Positions 33,016-54,588 of a stretch of 64,000 nt of DNA are shown in pieces. A program made the translations under genes and the position numbers. Under the pieces are notes generated by a model. The model had not been told where the DNA came from, made no database searches, and saw nothing but the letters and a program-made list of their open reading frames with translations. Within the stretch, counting starts at the first letter, position 1; the number at the start of each line of letters is the position of its first letter. Source of the DNA: Micromonospora terminaliae (GTDB lineage Bacteria > Actinomycetota > Actinomycetes > Mycobacteriales > Micromonosporaceae); assembly GCF_009671205.1 (NCBI RefSeq), contig NZ_CP045309.1:4588001-4652000 (forward strand), given 5' to 3'.

Positions 33016-34089
33016 TCAGGACGAGGCGAGCCAGCGGTGCAGCGTGGCCGCGCCATCGCGGATCTTGGTCAGCTCGACGTGCTCGTCCTTGTGGTGGGCC
33101 AGGTTCGGGTCGCCGGGGCCGAAGTTCAGCGCCGGCATGCCCATGGCCGCGAACCGGGCCACGTCCGTCCAGCCCAGCTTGCCGATCGGGGCCGCGCCCA
33201 CCGCGGCCAGGAACTCCTGCGCCGGCGGGTTGTCCAGCCCCGGCGCCGCGCCGGCCGCCGCGTCGGTGACCGTCAGCTCGAAGCCGGCGAAGACCTCGCG
33301 CAGGTGCGCCTCGGCCGCGGCCGGGTCGCGGTCCGGGGCGTACCGGTAGTTGATCTCGATGTCGCAGCGGTCCGGGATGACGTTGCCCGCCACGCCGCCG
33401 GTGATCCGGACGGCGTTCAGGCCCTCGCGGTAGTCGCAGCCCTCGATGGTCACCCGCCGCGCCTCGTACGTGTTGAGCCGGCGCAGCACCTCGCCGGCGC
33501 CGTGGATGGCGTTCACCCCGTGCCAGGACCGGGCCGCATGGGCCCGCTCGCCGTGCGTGGTGACGATCGCCCGCATGGTGCCCTGGCAGCCCGCCTCCAC
33601 GATCCCGTAGGTGGGCTCCAGCAGCAGCGCGAAGTCGGCCGCCAGCCACTCCGGGTGCGCCTGGGAGACGAGCGTGAGGCCGTTGTACCTCGACTCGATC
33701 TCCTCGGCCTCGTAGAAGAAGTAGGTCACGTCGTAGCGCGGGTCGGGCAGGGTCACCGCCAGGTGCAGCGCGAAGGCCACGCCGGACTTCATGTCGGAGG
33801 TGCCGCAGCCGTACATCAGGTCGCCGCGCATGGTCGACGGGAAGTTGTCGTTGAGCGGGACGGTGTCCAGGTGGCCGGCGAGCACCACCCGCTGCGGGCG
33901 GCCCAGGTCGGTGCGCGCCATCACCGTGTTGGAGTGCCGGTAGGTGGTGAGGTGCGGCACGCCGCGCAGCACCTCCTCGACGCAGTCGGCGATCGCCTTC
34001 TCGTTGAGCGACACGGACTCGATGTCGACCAGCGCGCGGGTCAGCGCCACCGGATCGGCCAAGACCTCGGGGGTCAACGGGTTCTGCAT
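33016..34089 (-). CDS. dapE: Succinyl-diaminopimelate desuccinylase DapE
   Basis: 357 residues, M20 family. Metal ligands and catalytic residues are visible in [23 protein letters not shown] and [10 protein letters not shown], and the C-terminal HHKDEHVE. The enzyme removes succinate from N-succinyl-LL-diaminopimelate, giving LL-DAP for lysine and peptidoglycan. ATG 34089 ([13 protein letters not shown]) is chosen over a GTG at 34098 because TACCGT lies exactly 7 nt before it. Divergent from dapD, sharing a promoter palindrome. Confidence 0.93.
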
Positions 34090-34096
34090 GTGTGGC

Positions 34097-34106
34097 ACGG
34101 TACCGT
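34097..34106. promoter_or_regulatory. Shared palindromic -10 for dapE and dapD
   Basis: ACGGTACCGT is a perfect palindrome that reads TACCGT in both directions (34101-34106 plus; 34097-34102 minus). Each TACCGT ends exactly 7 nt before its start codon (ATG 34089 minus; GTG 34114 plus), so the 24 bp intergenic region is symmetrical to the base and both genes are leaderless. Confidence 0.7.
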
Positions 34107-34113
34107 CATTTTC

Positions 34114-35073
34114 GTGACGACCGCACAGTCTGCCTGGGGCATCGGCCTGGCCACGATCACCGCTGAAGACCAGGTGCTGGACACCTGGTACCCGACCGGC
34201 AAGCTGGGGCTCGGCGAGCTGCCACTGGTCGCCGGGGAGGACGAGGCCGACGTGCTCGACCTGCCGCCCGGCGCGGTCGGCGAGCGGGTGCTGCCCGGCC
34301 TGCGCACGGTCCAGGTGGTCACCGTCATCGGTTCACTGGACGACCCGATCAAGGACGCGGCCGACGCGTACCTGCGGTTGCACCTGCTCTCCCACCGCCT
34401 GGTGCGGCCCAACGAGCTGAACCTCGACGGCATCTTCGGCAAGCTGGCCAACGTGGCGTGGACCTCGGCCGGGCCGTGCCCGCCGGAGCGGGTCGACGAG
34501 CTGCGGGTCATCGAGCGGGCCGCCGGCCGCCACCTGGCCGTGCACGGGGTGGACAAGTTCCCCCGGATGACCGACTACGTGGTCCCGGCCGGCGTGCGCA
34601 TCGCCGACGCGGACCGGGTCCGGCTCGGCGCCCACCTGGCCGCCGGCACCACCGTGATGCACGAGGGCTTCGTCAACTTCAACGCCGGCACGCTGGGCGC
34701 CTCGATGGTCGAGGGGCGGATCGTGCAGGGCGTGGTGGTCGGCGACGGCTCCGACATCGGCGGCGGCGCCTCGATCATGGGCACCCTCTCCGGCGGCGGC
34801 ACCGAGAAGGTGCGCATCGGCGAGCGGAGCCTCGTCGGCGCGAACGCGGGCGTGGGCATCACCCTGGGCGACGACTGCGTGGTGGAGGCCGGCTGCTACA
34901 TCACCGCCGCCTCGAAGATCACCCTGCCGGACGGCCGGGTGGTCAAGGCCCGCGAGCTCTCCGGGGTGGACGGCCTGCTGTTCTGGCGCAACTCGGTGAC
35001 CGGCGCGCTGGAGGCGAAGCCGCGCACCGGCCGGGGCATCGAGCTGAACGCGGCGCTGCACGCCAACGACTGA
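34114..35073 (+). CDS. dapD: Tetrahydrodipicolinate N-succinyltransferase DapD
   Basis: 319 residues. N-terminal alpha/beta part with WGIGLATI start, then the left-handed beta-helix (about 170-260: [49 protein letters not shown]). The long actinobacterial type (like Rv1201c) carries the LDTWYP N-terminal stretch. It succinylates tetrahydrodipicolinate in lysine/DAP synthesis, the step before DapC and DapE. Start GTG 34114. Confidence 0.93.
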
Positions 35074-35162: not shown

Positions 35163-38100
35163 TCACCGCAGGCGGTACGCCTGGATGATCCGCTCGGTGA
35201 CCGTGTTGCCGGCGCTGTCCCGGGCGGTGGCCCGCAGCGAGACGTGACCGGGGCCGGCCGGGTGCCGGACGGTGGCCGCCCAGCCCGCGCCCTGCTTGTG
35301 CAGGGCCGCCCTGCGCCAGGTCTTGCCGCCGTCGTACGAGACGTCGACGGTCAGCGCCGCGACGGAGGCCGCCGGCGCGCCGGGCTGCCGCTGCACCGTC
35401 ACCGGAATGGTGAAGGTCCGGCCGGCCGGTGCGCTGCTGTCCACGGCCAGCGGCGGGGCGAAGCGGACCGCCATGGCGGGCAGCCGCGCCCACTCGTCAC
35501 CCGGGACGTGCCTGGAGCGGAACGTCCAGGTGGCCGAGACCTCGGTGCTCAGGTCGGTGAAGCCGCGCGTGGCGGAGGTCTCCAGCCGGTAGCTCGCCAC
35601 GCCCGGCGGCACCTGGAACTCGCCGTACCCCGGGGTGGCCTGCTCGGCGAGCAGCTTCCCGTTGCGGTAGAGGGCGGTCCGTTCGGTGTTGTTGCGCGAG
35701 CCGCCGGGGTGGCCGGCGGCGTCGCTGTGCACCGGCAGGTCGACGACGAGGGTGTCGCCGTTGCGCGTGATGCCCTGCTCCGGCCACCGCGGCTGCGGGA
35801 ACGACGGCCCGTACGGCGCGCTGTTCCAGTCCTCCCGGTAGGTCCGGCCGGGGCGGTACCGGGTGGGCACCGACGCCAGCACCGCCTGCACCTCCAGCCA
35901 GCCGTCCTCGCCGCGCGCGCCGAAGTCCAGCTCGGAACTCCACCGGGTACGGGTCGTGCTGTAGTGCTCGACCCGCTTGCCGGGCACCGGGACGGGGACG
36001 ACGACCGCCGAGCCGCCGATGTTGTAGTCGGACTCGGGGAAGACGATCCGCTCGTTGTCCGGCCCCGGGTAGCCGGCCGCGAACTTGTGCGTCACGGTGG
36101 CCAGGTCGGCCGGCCGGTAGTGCCGGACGAACCCGGTCGGCATCCGGCCCGGGAAAAGCTCGTTGAGACCGTAGAAGTACGGGCTGCGCTCCGGCGCCGT
36201 CGGTTCGAGCCACTGGCTGGCCAGGGCGGCGACGAAGAGCGAGTCGGAGACGTTGCGCCCGAGCGGGCCGCTGTAGAGGCCGTCGAAGCTGAACGTCCAG
36301 AGCCCGAACCCGTAGGAGAAGTTCGCGGTGGACCAGTTCGCCGACAAGTCGATCAGGAGCGGGGCCGCGCCGCGCTGCGGCACGGTCGACCGCACCGGCT
36401 TCGCCCGCCGGGCGTCGATCGTGAGCCGCTGGTCACCGCTCACCACCAGCTCCGGCTGGGCGAGCATGGACACCTCGGTCCAGCCCTCCTCCCCCGGCAC
36501 GTAGATCAGGCTGTTCAGGCCGTACCGGCCCTTCGGGAGGCGCAGCCGCGCCTCGCCGTCGGGGTCGTACACGTCCCGGTACAGGGCGGTGTCCAGGCCG
36601 ATCAGGGTGGTGAAGTAGTCGCCCGTGAGCTTGCCGGCCCGGTCCCGGTGCGTGACGGTCAGGTCGTAGCTCTCCACCTCACGGTTGACCGCGAGCGGGG
36701 TCACCGCGACCGCGCCGCCGGCACGGGCGAGCAGCCGGCCCGTCCAGTAGCCGTCGAGGCCGCCGAGCCTGGTGTCGGCCGTGACGGTGACCTGGGCCGT
36801 CCCGCCGGCCGGCACGGTGAGCCGGGACGCGCCGAGGGTGAACATGCCGGCCGGGGCGGTGCGCCCGTCGGGGCCGGTGACCTCGGTGGCGAGGTCGAGG
36901 GTGAGCGGAGCGCTGCCGCCGTTGCGGTAGGTGACCGTGCGGGCCATCGGCTGGTCGTCGCCGTGCGGCCAGGCCGCCACCCCGAACGAGACGCTGGGCG
37001 GGTCGCTGGTCACCTGCTCGGTGATCGCGTGGGCCACGTCGACCCGGCCGGCGCCCTGCTGGAACGCCGTCTGGTCGGGGTGCGGCTTCGCCGAGGCCAT
37101 GAGGGTGGCCTTGTACCGCCCCGCGGTCCAGCCGGGGTGCTGCTGGGCGAGCAGCGCCGCCGAACCGGCCACGTGCGGCGTGGCCATCGAGGTGCCGGAG
37201 AGGGAGACGTACTTGTCCCCCACCGGGTCGCCGATGGCGCCGTTGGCGGCCCGGGCGGCCACGATCTCGACGCCCGGCGCGGTGATGTCGGGCTTGATCC
37301 CGCCGTCGACCCGCGGCCCCCGGCTGGAGAAGTCGGCCAGCGCGTCGTCCCGGTCGACCGCGCCGACCGCCAGCGCGGCGTCGGCGGTGGCCGGCGAGCC
37401 GACCGAGCCGTCGGCGCCGTCGTTGCCGGCGGCCACCACGAAGAGCGTGCCGGTCTGGGCGGTCAGCGTCTCGACGGCCTGCTCCAGCGGGTCGACCTCG
37501 GGGAAGTCGGCGCCACTGAGGCTCATGTTGACCACGGTGGCGTGCTTCTCGGCCGCGGCCCACTGCATGCCGGCGAGGATCGCCGACTCGGTGCAGCCCT
37601 GGTTCTCGCAGACCTTGCCGGAGAACAGGGTGGCGTCGGGAGCCACGCCGCGGTACTTCCCGCCGGAGGCGGCACCGCTGCCCGCGATGATCGACGCGAC
37701 GTGGGTGCCGTGCCCGACCATGTCGTCCGACTCGGCCGCCTCGCTGAAGTTGCGCGCGTCGGCGACCCGGCCGGCCAGGTCGGGGTGAGTGAGGTCGACG
37801 CCGGTGTCGAGCACCGCGACGCTGACCCCCTTGCCGGTGAAGCCGGCGGCCCAGGCCGTGGGCGCGCCGATCTGCGGCACGCTGTGGTCGAGGGTCACCC
37901 GCCGCCGGCCGTCCAGCCAGATCCGGTCGACATCCCCCGCCGCGTCGACCCGGGCACCGGCCCGGCCGGCCGTGACCGCGGCCCAGACCGCGCCGGCGTC
38001 GGCCTTCGTCGCGACCACTGCGGCGCCGCCGATCGCGGGCAGGTCGCGGGTCACCCGGGTGCCGGCCGTCGGGGCCGCCGCCCGTCGGGCCGACCCCGGC

Positions 38101-38504
38101 CGGTACGACACGAGCAGCGGCAGCGTGTCCCGCCGGGCGTCGTCGTAGCCGGCCGCGACCAGTCCCGTGACGTCGAACAGCCGCCGGTCGACCCGGCCGG
38201 CCCGGACCAGGGGCAGCGCGTCCTGCGGCAGCACGGTGAGGTGCCCGCGTTCCCGGCCGACCAGGAAGCCGATCCCGGCGCGGCCGGCGCCGGGGCGGAC
38301 CGCGGCCTGCCCGGCGGCGGTCACGGTGACCCGGTCGCCGGTGATCAGGGTGACGGTGCCCGGCCCGCCGTCTGCGGGGGCCGCGGTGCGGGCCGGGGCG
38401 CCGTCCGGGGCGGCCGAGGGAGCGGCGGTGGCCGGCACGGGCGCGCCCAGCGCCAGCCCGAGGGTGAGGCCGAGGCCGGCGATTCTTCTTCGATTTCGGA
38501 GCAA
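35163..38504 (-). CDS. Large secreted subtilisin-like S8 serine peptidase
   Basis: About 1113 residues. Signal peptide (RNRRRIAGLGLTLGLALGAP, cleavage near PATAAP), a propeptide-like stretch with TVTLITGDRVTV, then the S8 domain with Asp in VAVLDTGVDLTHP, His in GHGTHVASIIAG and Ser in SGTSMATPHVAG. The remainder (about 600 residues) is beta-rich, including Fn3-like/Big segments, for substrate or wall binding. Start is set at TTG 38504, right after AAGGAGG, because MLRNRRR gives a proper signal peptide; ATG 38534 would add an acidic lead. Extracellular protease; substrate unknown. It shares a palindrome with the divergent acetyltransferase. Confidence 0.85.
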   Translation of the reverse strand: MLRNRRRIAGLGLTLGLALGAPVPATAAPSAAPDGAPARTAAPADGGPGTVTLITGDRVTVTAAGQAAVRPGAGRAGIGFLVGRERGHLTVLPQDALPLVRAGRVDRRLFDVTGLVAAGYDDARRDTLPLLVSYRPGSARRAAAPTAGTRVTRDLPAIGGAAVVATKADAGAVWAAVTAGRAGARVDAAGDVDRIWLDGRRRVTLDHSVPQIGAPTAWAAGFTGKGVSVAVLDTGVDLTHPDLAGRVADARNFSEAAESDDMVGHGTHVASIIAGSGAASGGKYRGVAPDATLFSGKVCENQGCTESAILAGMQWAAAEKHATVVNMSLSGADFPEVDPLEQAVETLTAQTGTLFVVAAGNDGADGSVGSPATADAALAVGAVDRDDALADFSSRGPRVDGGIKPDITAPGVEIVAARAANGAIGDPVGDKYVSLSGTSMATPHVAGSAALLAQQHPGWTAGRYKATLMASAKPHPDQTAFQQGAGRVDVAHAITEQVTSDPPSVSFGVAAWPHGDDQPMARTVTYRNGGSAPLTLDLATEVTGPDGRTAPAGMFTLGASRLTVPAGGTAQVTVTADTRLGGLDGYWTGRLLARAGGAVAVTPLAVNREVESYDLTVTHRDRAGKLTGDYFTTLIGLDTALYRDVYDPDGEARLRLPKGRYGLNSLIYVPGEEGWTEVSMLAQPELVVSGDQRLTIDARRAKPVRSTVPQRGAAPLLIDLSANWSTANFSYGFGLWTFSFDGLYSGPLGRNVSDSLFVAALASQWLEPTAPERSPYFYGLNELFPGRMPTGFVRHYRPADLATVTHKFAAGYPGPDNERIVFPESDYNIGGSAVVVPVPVPGKRVEHYSTTRTRWSSELDFGARGEDGWLEVQAVLASVPTRYRPGRTYREDWNSAPYGPSFPQPRWPEQGITRNGDTLVVDLPVHSDAAGHPGGSRNNTERTALYRNGKLLAEQATPGYGEFQVPPGVASYRLETSATRGFTDLSTEVSATWTFRSRHVPGDEWARLPAMAVRFAPPLAVDSSAPAGRTFTIPVTVQRQPGAPAASVAALTVDVSYDGGKTWRRAALHKQGAGWAATVRHPAGPGHVSLRATARDSAGNTVTERIIQAYRLR

Positions 38505-38561
38505 CGTTCCTCCTTCGTCACGCGTCTTCATCAATGAGAGCCATCGACGCAGATTGCCAGA

Positions 38562-52748: not shown

Positions 52749-54494
52749 TCACTGCTTCACGTAGGCGTTCACGAAGCTCGGCCAGCCGAAGATGCTGCCG
52801 ATGAACAGGCCGCCGGCCTTCTCGCCGTGCGCGACGGAGACGACCTCGTTGTAGAGCGGCACCGCCGGCGCCGACTCCTTCATGAGCTTCTCGTCGAGCG
52901 CGCTCCACTCCTCCGCCTGCTTGGCCGGGTCCTCCGCGAGCACGCGGTCGAACTCGGCGTTGATGGCGTCGTTGTTGAGCTGGGAGGTGTTGCTGTTGCC
53001 CTCCGCCTTGATGTTGCGGCCGTCGAAGAGCACCGGCAGGATCGACGCGCCGCTGGGCCAGTCGGCGGCCCACGAGTCGACCCAGATGTCCCACGGGTTG
53101 CTCTTCTTCTTCACGAAGTCGAGGTAACCGTCCTCGGGGATCGGCTTGATGGTGACGGTGAAGCCGGCCTTTTCCAGGGCGTTCTTGATCTGGGTGGCGG
53201 TCTCCTGCGACGGGGTGTCGTCGGAGGTGCCGAGCACGAGGTTCACCGACTTGCCGGCGAGCAGCTCCTTGGCCTTCTCCGGGTTGCCGCTCTCCCCGGC
53301 CGGGTACGCGTCGAACTGCTTGTAGCCGAGCGTGGTCGGCGGCAGCAGGGTGGTGAGCGGCACGGCGCCGTACGGGCCGCCGAGGTTCTTGGTGATGCTG
53401 CTGCGGTCGATCGCGTAGTTGATCGCCTGCCGCACGGCCAGGTCGGTGACCCGCGTCGTGTTGATGCTCAGCCGGTAGGCGTTCGGCGTGGCGGCGACGA
53501 TCATCCGCTCCTTGAGCTTGGCGTCGCCGGTGACCTTCGCGATCAGCTCGGACGGGACGCCGCCGGTGCCCACGGCCGCGGCGTCGTTGCCGGTGCCGGC
53601 GAGCACCCGGTTGGTCTGGGTGGCGTTGTCCGCTCCCAGCGACCAGACGAACTTGTCCGGGTACGCGTGCCGCACCGGGTCGGTCGCCGGGTCCCAGTTC
53701 GCGTTCCGCTCCAGCACCATCTCCACGCCGGGCGTGATCTTGGTGAACTTGTACGGCCCGGACGAGAACGGCTGGTTGTCCAGGTTGACGCCGGTGTCCT
53801 TGTCCGCCGGCAGCGGCGCGGTGGCCGGCAGCGACACGGCGAACGGCAGGTCACAGCGCGGCTTGCTGAACTCGAAGCGCAGCGTCTGCGCGTCCGGGGT
53901 GCTCAGGCCCGGCGGCAGCGAGGTCTTGTTGGCCTTGAAGTTCCACTTGGTGTCGTACTGCGGGCTGTCGGCCAGCCACTCCTGCAGGTAGGTGGGGCCA
54001 CCCGTCAGGTCGGGGTCGAACGAGCGGGCGATGCCGTACGCGATCTCCTTGGAGGTGATCGGACGGCCGTCCTCGAACTTGACGCCCTGCTTGATCTTGA
54101 ATTCCCAGACCTTGCAGTCGTTGTTGACGTTCTTGCCGGGGGTCTCGGCCAGGTCGCCGACCAGGGTCACGTTGCCCTTGCCGTCGTCCTTGAACGTGGT
54201 GAGGAAGCGCGCGTAGAGCTGGCTCCCCATGAGGCCGGCGAACGAGTAGACCCGCTGCGGGTCCAGGTGGGAGATCTTGTTCTCGCGCAGGATGTAGAAG
54301 GTCCCGCCCTTGGCCGCGCCGGGCACCTCCGCCGCCGGACCCAGCGAGTCCTTGGGGTCGGTCGCGATGGCGCCGCTGCGGGGCTTGTTGCTGTCCACCT
54401 TGTCGGCGTTGTCGCCGGTGTTCTTGCTGCATGCACTGAGGGCGACCACCAGTGCCATCGCACCGCCCATGGCGGTGGCGAGTCTTGCTCGCAT
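52749..54494 (-). CDS. oppA: Oligopeptide/dipeptide ABC substrate-binding lipoprotein
   Basis: 581 residues, SBP family 5. Signal peptide and lipobox LSAC (19-22) give a lipid-anchored Cys22. Then the family's YILRENKISHLDPQRVYSF, VWEFKIKQGVKFEDGRPITS and LRFEFSKPRCDLPFAVSLPA. Binds peptides for import through the permeases encoded upstream. ATG 54494 follows GGAGGAGTGAGT. It is the last gene of the operon and 94 nt from oppB, with a gap that may hold a processing or attenuation site. Confidence 0.92.
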   Translation of the reverse strand: MRARLATAMGGAMALVVALSACSKNTGDNADKVDSNKPRSGAIATDPKDSLGPAAEVPGAAKGGTFYILRENKISHLDPQRVYSFAGLMGSQLYARFLTTFKDDGKGNVTLVGDLAETPGKNVNNDCKVWEFKIKQGVKFEDGRPITSKEIAYGIARSFDPDLTGGPTYLQEWLADSPQYDTKWNFKANKTSLPPGLSTPDAQTLRFEFSKPRCDLPFAVSLPATAPLPADKDTGVNLDNQPFSSGPYKFTKITPGVEMVLERNANWDPATDPVRHAYPDKFVWSLGADNATQTNRVLAGTGNDAAAVGTGGVPSELIAKVTGDAKLKERMIVAATPNAYRLSINTTRVTDLAVRQAINYAIDRSSITKNLGGPYGAVPLTTLLPPTTLGYKQFDAYPAGESGNPEKAKELLAGKSVNLVLGTSDDTPSQETATQIKNALEKAGFTVTIKPIPEDGYLDFVKKKSNPWDIWVDSWAADWPSGASILPVLFDGRNIKAEGNSNTSQLNNDAINAEFDRVLAEDPAKQAEEWSALDEKLMKESAPAVPLYNEVVSVAHGEKAGGLFIGSIFGWPSFVNAYVKQ

Positions 54495-54588
54495 ACTCAC
54501 TCCTCCGGGTCCGATGAAGGAAAGCTTCGCTTAGGTTTCATCCGCGGTAAATTTCGAGCAGATAACGAATCGACTGCGACATGCCAGC

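Follow-up and report, generated by a model that had tools for sequence, protein, structure and literature searches.

The 24-bp gap between dapE and dapD, divergent genes of the lysine/cell-wall pathway in Micromonospora terminaliae, very probably acts as a bidirectional promoter recognized by the housekeeping sigma factor, with TANNNT -10 elements that overlap on opposite strands. The gap, GTGTGGCACGGTACCGTCATTTTC, lies in the window, the 64,000-nucleotide stretch of DNA that was analysed, and the features discussed here are collected in Table 1. The two predicted -10 elements overlap at the TA in the center of the palindrome, and RNA polymerase would therefore open the same short block in either orientation; two polymerases presumably could not occupy the site simultaneously. 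In the window species each transcript would start at or beside its start codon, which would make both mRNAs leaderless. The first-pass annotation had described TACCGT on both strands, 7 nt from each start codon, within a 24-bp gap, and this description was exact to the base. Its statement that the region is symmetric held for the 10-bp core, the layout, and the spacer length but not for the spacer letters, as only one of the seven mirrored spacer pairs (34090/34113) is complementary. The site thus has the overlapping, opposite-strand -10 elements that mark bidirectional promoters, and on each side a TANNNT ending within the 5 to 8 nt of the start codon that marks leaderless genes.

Table 1. 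Features of the dapE/dapD region (positions in the window)
Feature	Positions	Strand	Description
dapE, succinyl-diaminopimelate desuccinylase	33016..34089	-	ATG at 34089 (CAT on the forward strand, 34087-34089); TIGR01900 dapE-gram_pos, 515.1 bits vs cut-off 304.2
dapE codons 2-9	34063..34086	-	few third-position changes; overlaps the expected dapD -35 region
Gap between start codons	34090-34113		24 bp
Conserved 14-bp block GCACGGTACC[G/T]TC(A)	34095..34108		centred on the palindrome
Palindrome ACGGTACCGT	34097-34106		both predicted -10 elements within; 2-bp overlap at 34101-34102; centre 34101.5
Predicted dapE -10, TACCGT	34097-34102 (read 34102-34097)	-	7 nt, then ATG
Predicted dapD -10, TACCGT	34101-34106	+	7 nt, then GTG
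dapD, tetrahydrodipicolinate N-succinyltransferase	34114..35073	+	GTG at 34114; TIGR03535 DapD_actino, 463.8 bits vs cut-off 441.5

The closest named DapD was that of Micromonospora solifontis (97% identity). Converging on dapD from the minus strand is a large ORF (35163-38534) that matches subtilisin-type serine protease models; its top NCBIfam match, T7SS_mycosin, was under the cut-off. The 6.74-Mb genome has a single copy of the 10-mer ACGGTACCGT, located here, and its backwards control is present in 3 places. The full layout, CAY-N6-8-ANNNTANNNT-N6-8-RTG, was found once in the 64-kb window, with a mean of 0.1 in 30 single-base shuffles. The rarity of the 10-mer alone is weak evidence; its conservation is strong evidence.

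Conservation within the genus was examined in 101 genomes drawn from a larger number; DapD was found in 100 of these, and all 100 loci were used. At every locus the dapE match started at residue 1 and the block lay at exactly 7 nt from the dapE ATG. The ten bases 8 to 17 nt before this ATG were ACGGTACCGT at 71 loci and ACGGTACCTT at the other 29, and the T, A, and last T of each hexamer (A...TA...T) were invariant on both strands in 100/100. On a tree computed from the gene ends (281 columns; 39 starred branches among 97 inner ones), 12 of the 14 block columns had no changes, the others being 34105 (G or T, 7 changes) and 34108 (1 change; A at 96 loci, C at 4). The columns on either side (1-5 and 20-24) had 1 to 20 changes each, and nine of these ten had at least 6. 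Within the core only 34105 varied; TANNNT leaves this letter of the dapD hexamer free, and the mirrored letter at 34098 was constant in all 100 loci. The 29 ACGGTACCTT loci carry TACCTT as the dapD-side hexamer, with TANNNT intact; this form was present in 2 of the 24 short-gap loci and 27 of the 76 leadered loci described below. Base-perfect symmetry, as claimed in the first-pass annotation, is therefore not kept across the genus. Selection appears to maintain a TANNNT on each strand, with no requirement for a perfect palindrome. Positions 34098-34100, 34103, and 34104 were also invariant in 100/100 loci, although TANNNT does not demand them, and the invariance of these remaining free core positions exceeds what TANNNT alone explains.

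The dapE and dapD starts are 24 bp apart at 24 of the 100 loci and 72 to 190 bp apart at the other 76, so the claimed spacing is retained for dapE and not for dapD. Using a permissive set of Shine-Dalgarno-like words, 4 or 5 letters long, we found a match before dapD at 76/76 leadered loci and at 0/24 leaderless-type loci, which share the layout of the window; dapD at the latter thus lacks the Shine-Dalgarno word, as leaderless genes do. Matches before dapE, of which the window dapE has none, occurred at 29/100 loci. These were exactly the 29 TACCTT loci, which indicates that the dapE word is AAGGT, the complement of the dapD-side -10. The dapD-side T A...T was kept in 76/76 loci at which the dapD start is displaced, so this hexamer is not mere start-codon context and, to judge from this pattern, is a transcription signal. 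A leaderless dapD is consequently not a requirement of the shared site, since 76/100 loci are leadered and keep the dapD-side -10. The leaderless and leadered states changed at least 7 times on the tree, with gain and loss not distinguished, and 4 of these changes are forced by starred branches. We rejected a leaderless mini-ORF as a general feature of the dapD leader: in many leadered loci the region 4 to 11 nt past the -10 holds no start codon, and the frame of any that is present enters dapD, overruns the dapD start, or stops earlier. At some leadered loci (e.g., L034, L047, and L051), a GTG lies 8 nt after the dapD -10, in frame with dapD and stop-free, so a leaderless, N-terminally extended DapD would be possible there. 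The proposal of a shared leaderless promoter is thus partly supported: two overlapping -10 elements at leaderless distance are kept in relatives, but perfect symmetry and the dapD distance are not.

A further proposal, that each gene has its -35 element within the first codons of its neighbour, found no support as stated in the genus data. A TGAC-core (nTGACn) -35 with a spacer of 14 to 21 bp was absent in both directions in the window sequence, and within the genus it was found on the dapD side at 0/100 loci and on the dapE side at 2/100. Third-position changes on the tree numbered 11 for dapE codons 2-9, 11 for codons 10-14, and 111 for codons 15-26. These quiet codons could reflect a promoter that extends into the coding start or selection on the first part of the gene itself; because the quiet stretch extends past any -35, a constraint on the dapE start region is favoured. 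Upstream of its -10, dapE has the coding sequence of dapD in the 24-bp class, whereas the 76 leadered loci have leader DNA there in place of the dapD coding start. Since the two classes differ in this way, there is no fixed dapE -35.

The arrangement recurs well beyond the genus. We compared 135 distinct loci, taken from the wider samples or from named records and each with a divergent dapE close by, including the named Micromonospora records and with identical stretches merged; start codons were chosen mechanically among candidates, and controls were run on the same candidates. A TANNNT was found 5 to 9 nt before dapE at 133/135 loci, compared to 3 to 13 in five controls, and 5 to 9 nt before dapD at 110/135 (absent in 25), compared to 3 to 7. 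Both genes had one at 108/135 loci, compared to 0 to 1 in the controls: TANNNT before both genes at 10 to 14, 15 to 19, and 20 to 24 nt was found at 0, 1, and 1 of 135 loci, and the control motifs TNNNAT and ATNNNA at 5 to 9 nt were found at 1 and 0. Among loci with a close divergent dapE from the family (49), order (23), and class (19), the dapE element was present at 48/49, 23/23, and 18/19 and the dapD element at 38/49, 17/23, and 19/19, respectively. Both were present at 37, 17, and 18 loci, with overlapping hexamers at 20, 2, and 14; in the order sample, separate -10 elements are the rule. For the 72 unnamed family, order, and class loci with both elements, two overlap registers were found, -1 (TANNNTA) at 19 loci and +4 (ANNNTANNNT) at 17, with none between, in a count that preferred an overlapping pair where several were possible and in which the register partly follows from the gap length. 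Most other overlaps are absent, as expected, because TANNNT and its own reverse complement clash there. Gaps with both elements were 17 to 20 bp (19 loci) or 22 to 26 bp (19 loci) long, the next being 31 bp and above. The 17-bp gap of some lineages consists of 5 nt, TANNNTA, and 5 nt, and the lack of gaps below 17 bp agrees with this being the smallest gap in which two leaderless genes can share a -10. The +4 layout was found in the named species Micromonospora solifontis, Micromonospora globispora, and Saccharothrix tamanrassetensis as well as in assemblies from the Frankiales, Frankiaceae, and Geodermatophilaceae; the two -10 elements are separate in the records of Mycobacterium and Mycolicibacterium. 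All six Streptomyces records are without a close divergent dapE, and in all of them dapD retains its TANNNT. Such records, among 33 named loci of this kind of which 26 have TANNNT 5 to 9 nt before dapD, indicate that a leaderless-distance -10 before dapD is commoner than its sharing with dapE.

Three other explanations of the site were weighed. One is that the symmetry arose by chance in a gap that is short and GC-rich. In its favour, a palindrome with at most one mismatch is expected about twice per 64-kb window (2 matches against 1.87 expected) and so is not rare by itself; conservation across the genus and the controls at the wider loci contradict this explanation, and we regard it as extremely improbable. 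It is also quite unlikely that dapE alone uses the site, the dapD half being kept for the sake of dapE and dapD being transcribed from elsewhere. The dapE side is indeed the more constant (133 versus 110 of 135 wider loci) and its distance is fixed at 100/100 genus loci, but T34106, which lies outside the dapE -10, is invariant even where the dapD start has moved. Moreover, the dapD element stands at 5 to 9 nt at 110/135 loci against 3 to 7 in controls, and it is present at 26 of the 33 named loci that lack a close divergent dapE, all six Streptomyces included.

The palindrome could instead serve as operator for a dimeric repressor of both genes, an explanation that would account for a palindromic, centred site conserved in the genus beyond the needs of TANNNT but that we consider unlikely. 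The 10-mer is found just once in its own genome, and by hand count the 13-mer GCACGGTACCGTC had 98 matches in the 101 genus genomes, 71 of which are the dapE/dapD locus, as that form is carried by 71 of the 100 loci. The 27 other matches are somewhat more than the 17 of the backwards control but far from an exact-site regulon, and one of the 27, in G077 (the genome without a DapD match), may be the dapE/dapD locus itself. In addition, the dapD half changed from G to T without the mirrored change at 29/100 loci, with 7 changes on the tree, and in other genera the TANNNT elements of the two strands are retained in another register. A regulon-type operator is thus disfavoured by the single 10-mer in 6.74 Mb; the site may be an operator for a single-target or tolerant regulator. 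A bidirectional promoter remains the preferred reading.

The founding paper on bacterial bidirectional promoters is said to date from 2021. The dapE/dapD site is a further case of this already described type of two-way promoter. Such promoters are treated by Warman, Grainger, and colleagues (PMC10268837 and PMC12825309); the latter paper gives start-to-start distances of 18, 10, and 23 bp for promoters with shared -10 elements and allows small shifts of distance with the spacer. These promoters resemble the present site in their overlapping opposite-strand -10 elements, their near-symmetric sequence, and their divergent transcripts for a single pathway. The 18-bp class would correspond to register -1 if the spacers are 6 nt long, and the 23-bp class to register +4. 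The 7-nt spacers of the window predict starts 25 bp apart if the starts are the start codons, compared to the published 23. Unlike the promoters described there, dapE and dapD are both predicted to be leaderless at 24/100 genus loci, and because both directions look leaderless almost the whole gap would be promoter. The -10 words also differ, being the GC-rich actinobacterial TANNNT. According to PMC12825309, basal activity at five E. coli bidirectional promoters is not high enough for polymerases to compete substantially, and one direction can be repressed when the other is activated. The first-pass annotation had suggested that dapD and dapE compete or are expressed in fixed proportion; by analogy, competition between polymerases at dapD/dapE would be possible but not the default.

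Actinoplanes and Micromonospora belong to the same family. In PMC7682106, TAnnnT was reported for 98% of the Actinoplanes start regions examined, with a spacer of 6.2 +/- 1.1 nt, together with 1179 starts of leaderless transcripts. Leaderless genes of M. tuberculosis (PMC3898074) and Actinoplanes (PMC7682106) likewise have a -10 5 to 8 nt from the start codon, and dapD further resembles them in having no Shine-Dalgarno word; unlike the present pair, they are described mostly gene by gene. In PMC3898074 a figure legend describes divergent promoters in close juxtaposition as common and gives one leaderless divergent pair, PrpD/Rv1129c. Among the best title matches in the open PubMed Central literature, there was no report of a leaderless dapE/dapD promoter shared by both genes.

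The leaders that separate dapD from the promoter in relatives often contain a repeat. Loci L020, L053, and L099 have 1, 1, and 3 copies, respectively, of a unit of approximately 55 bp that starts with GTGA and lies just before the dapD GTGA. Of the 76 leadered loci, 56 matched a repeat unit (E 1e-3 or better), 24 of these over at least 40 bases; the other 20 had no unit match, and the repeat was rejected as the whole origin of the dapD leaders. The L099 stretch (genome G013) had at least 26 to 41 matches per genome in five genomes, dap locus included, with approximately 40 of 206 to 292 candidates scored per genome. Two of its units were matched in 31/61 family genomes, representing 23/44 genera. 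We then considered 40 repeat arrays (L224-L263), drawn from the top-scoring matches of two genomes. In 37/40 an ORF of at least 70 codons began just after the array, with its start within DTGA in 34/40, compared to 36/200 random positions of the same stretches, and a stop codon lay within 25 nt upstream in 36/40, a count without a random control. The arrays comprise 1 to 6 tandem copies with a unit spacing of 53 to 62 bp, and 27 of 38 spacings leave a remainder of 2 on division by 3. Of the 78 units, 72 begin with GTGA; 63 of these have an ORF of at most 40 codons, and 62 end in DTGA, so that the stop of the small ORF overlaps the next start. At dapD itself a small overlapping ORF is not the rule, with none in many leadered loci, and the 64-kb window has no copy of the repeat beyond a weak 19-base match at 54487-54505.

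Mycobacterial interspersed repetitive units (MIRUs) were reportedly described by Supply in 1997. The Micromonospora repeat resembles MIRUs as presented in PMC12548453. Both are multicopy and tandem, sit at DTGA start codons, as 34 of the 40 arrays do, and contain a small ORF that ends at the next DTGA. They differ in that the repeat here belongs to another genus and family, and the likeness is one of placement and small-ORF logic. No report of such repeats in Micromonospora was found among the best title matches in the open PubMed Central literature.

A broader reading, to which we would give an even chance of being correct, is that the gap is an ancient two-way promoter at its physical minimum, leaderless in both directions, which has switched between overlap registers. 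The dapD start of Micromonospora would then be a recurrent landing site for MIRU-like repeats, which add a leader to a leaderless gene without removing its promoter. One gene pair present in many lineages of the class allows a shared promoter to be compared across registers, symmetry states, and DNA added at the start codon. These natural variants make it possible to test what a two-way promoter needs: symmetry, spacing, or just two -10 words.
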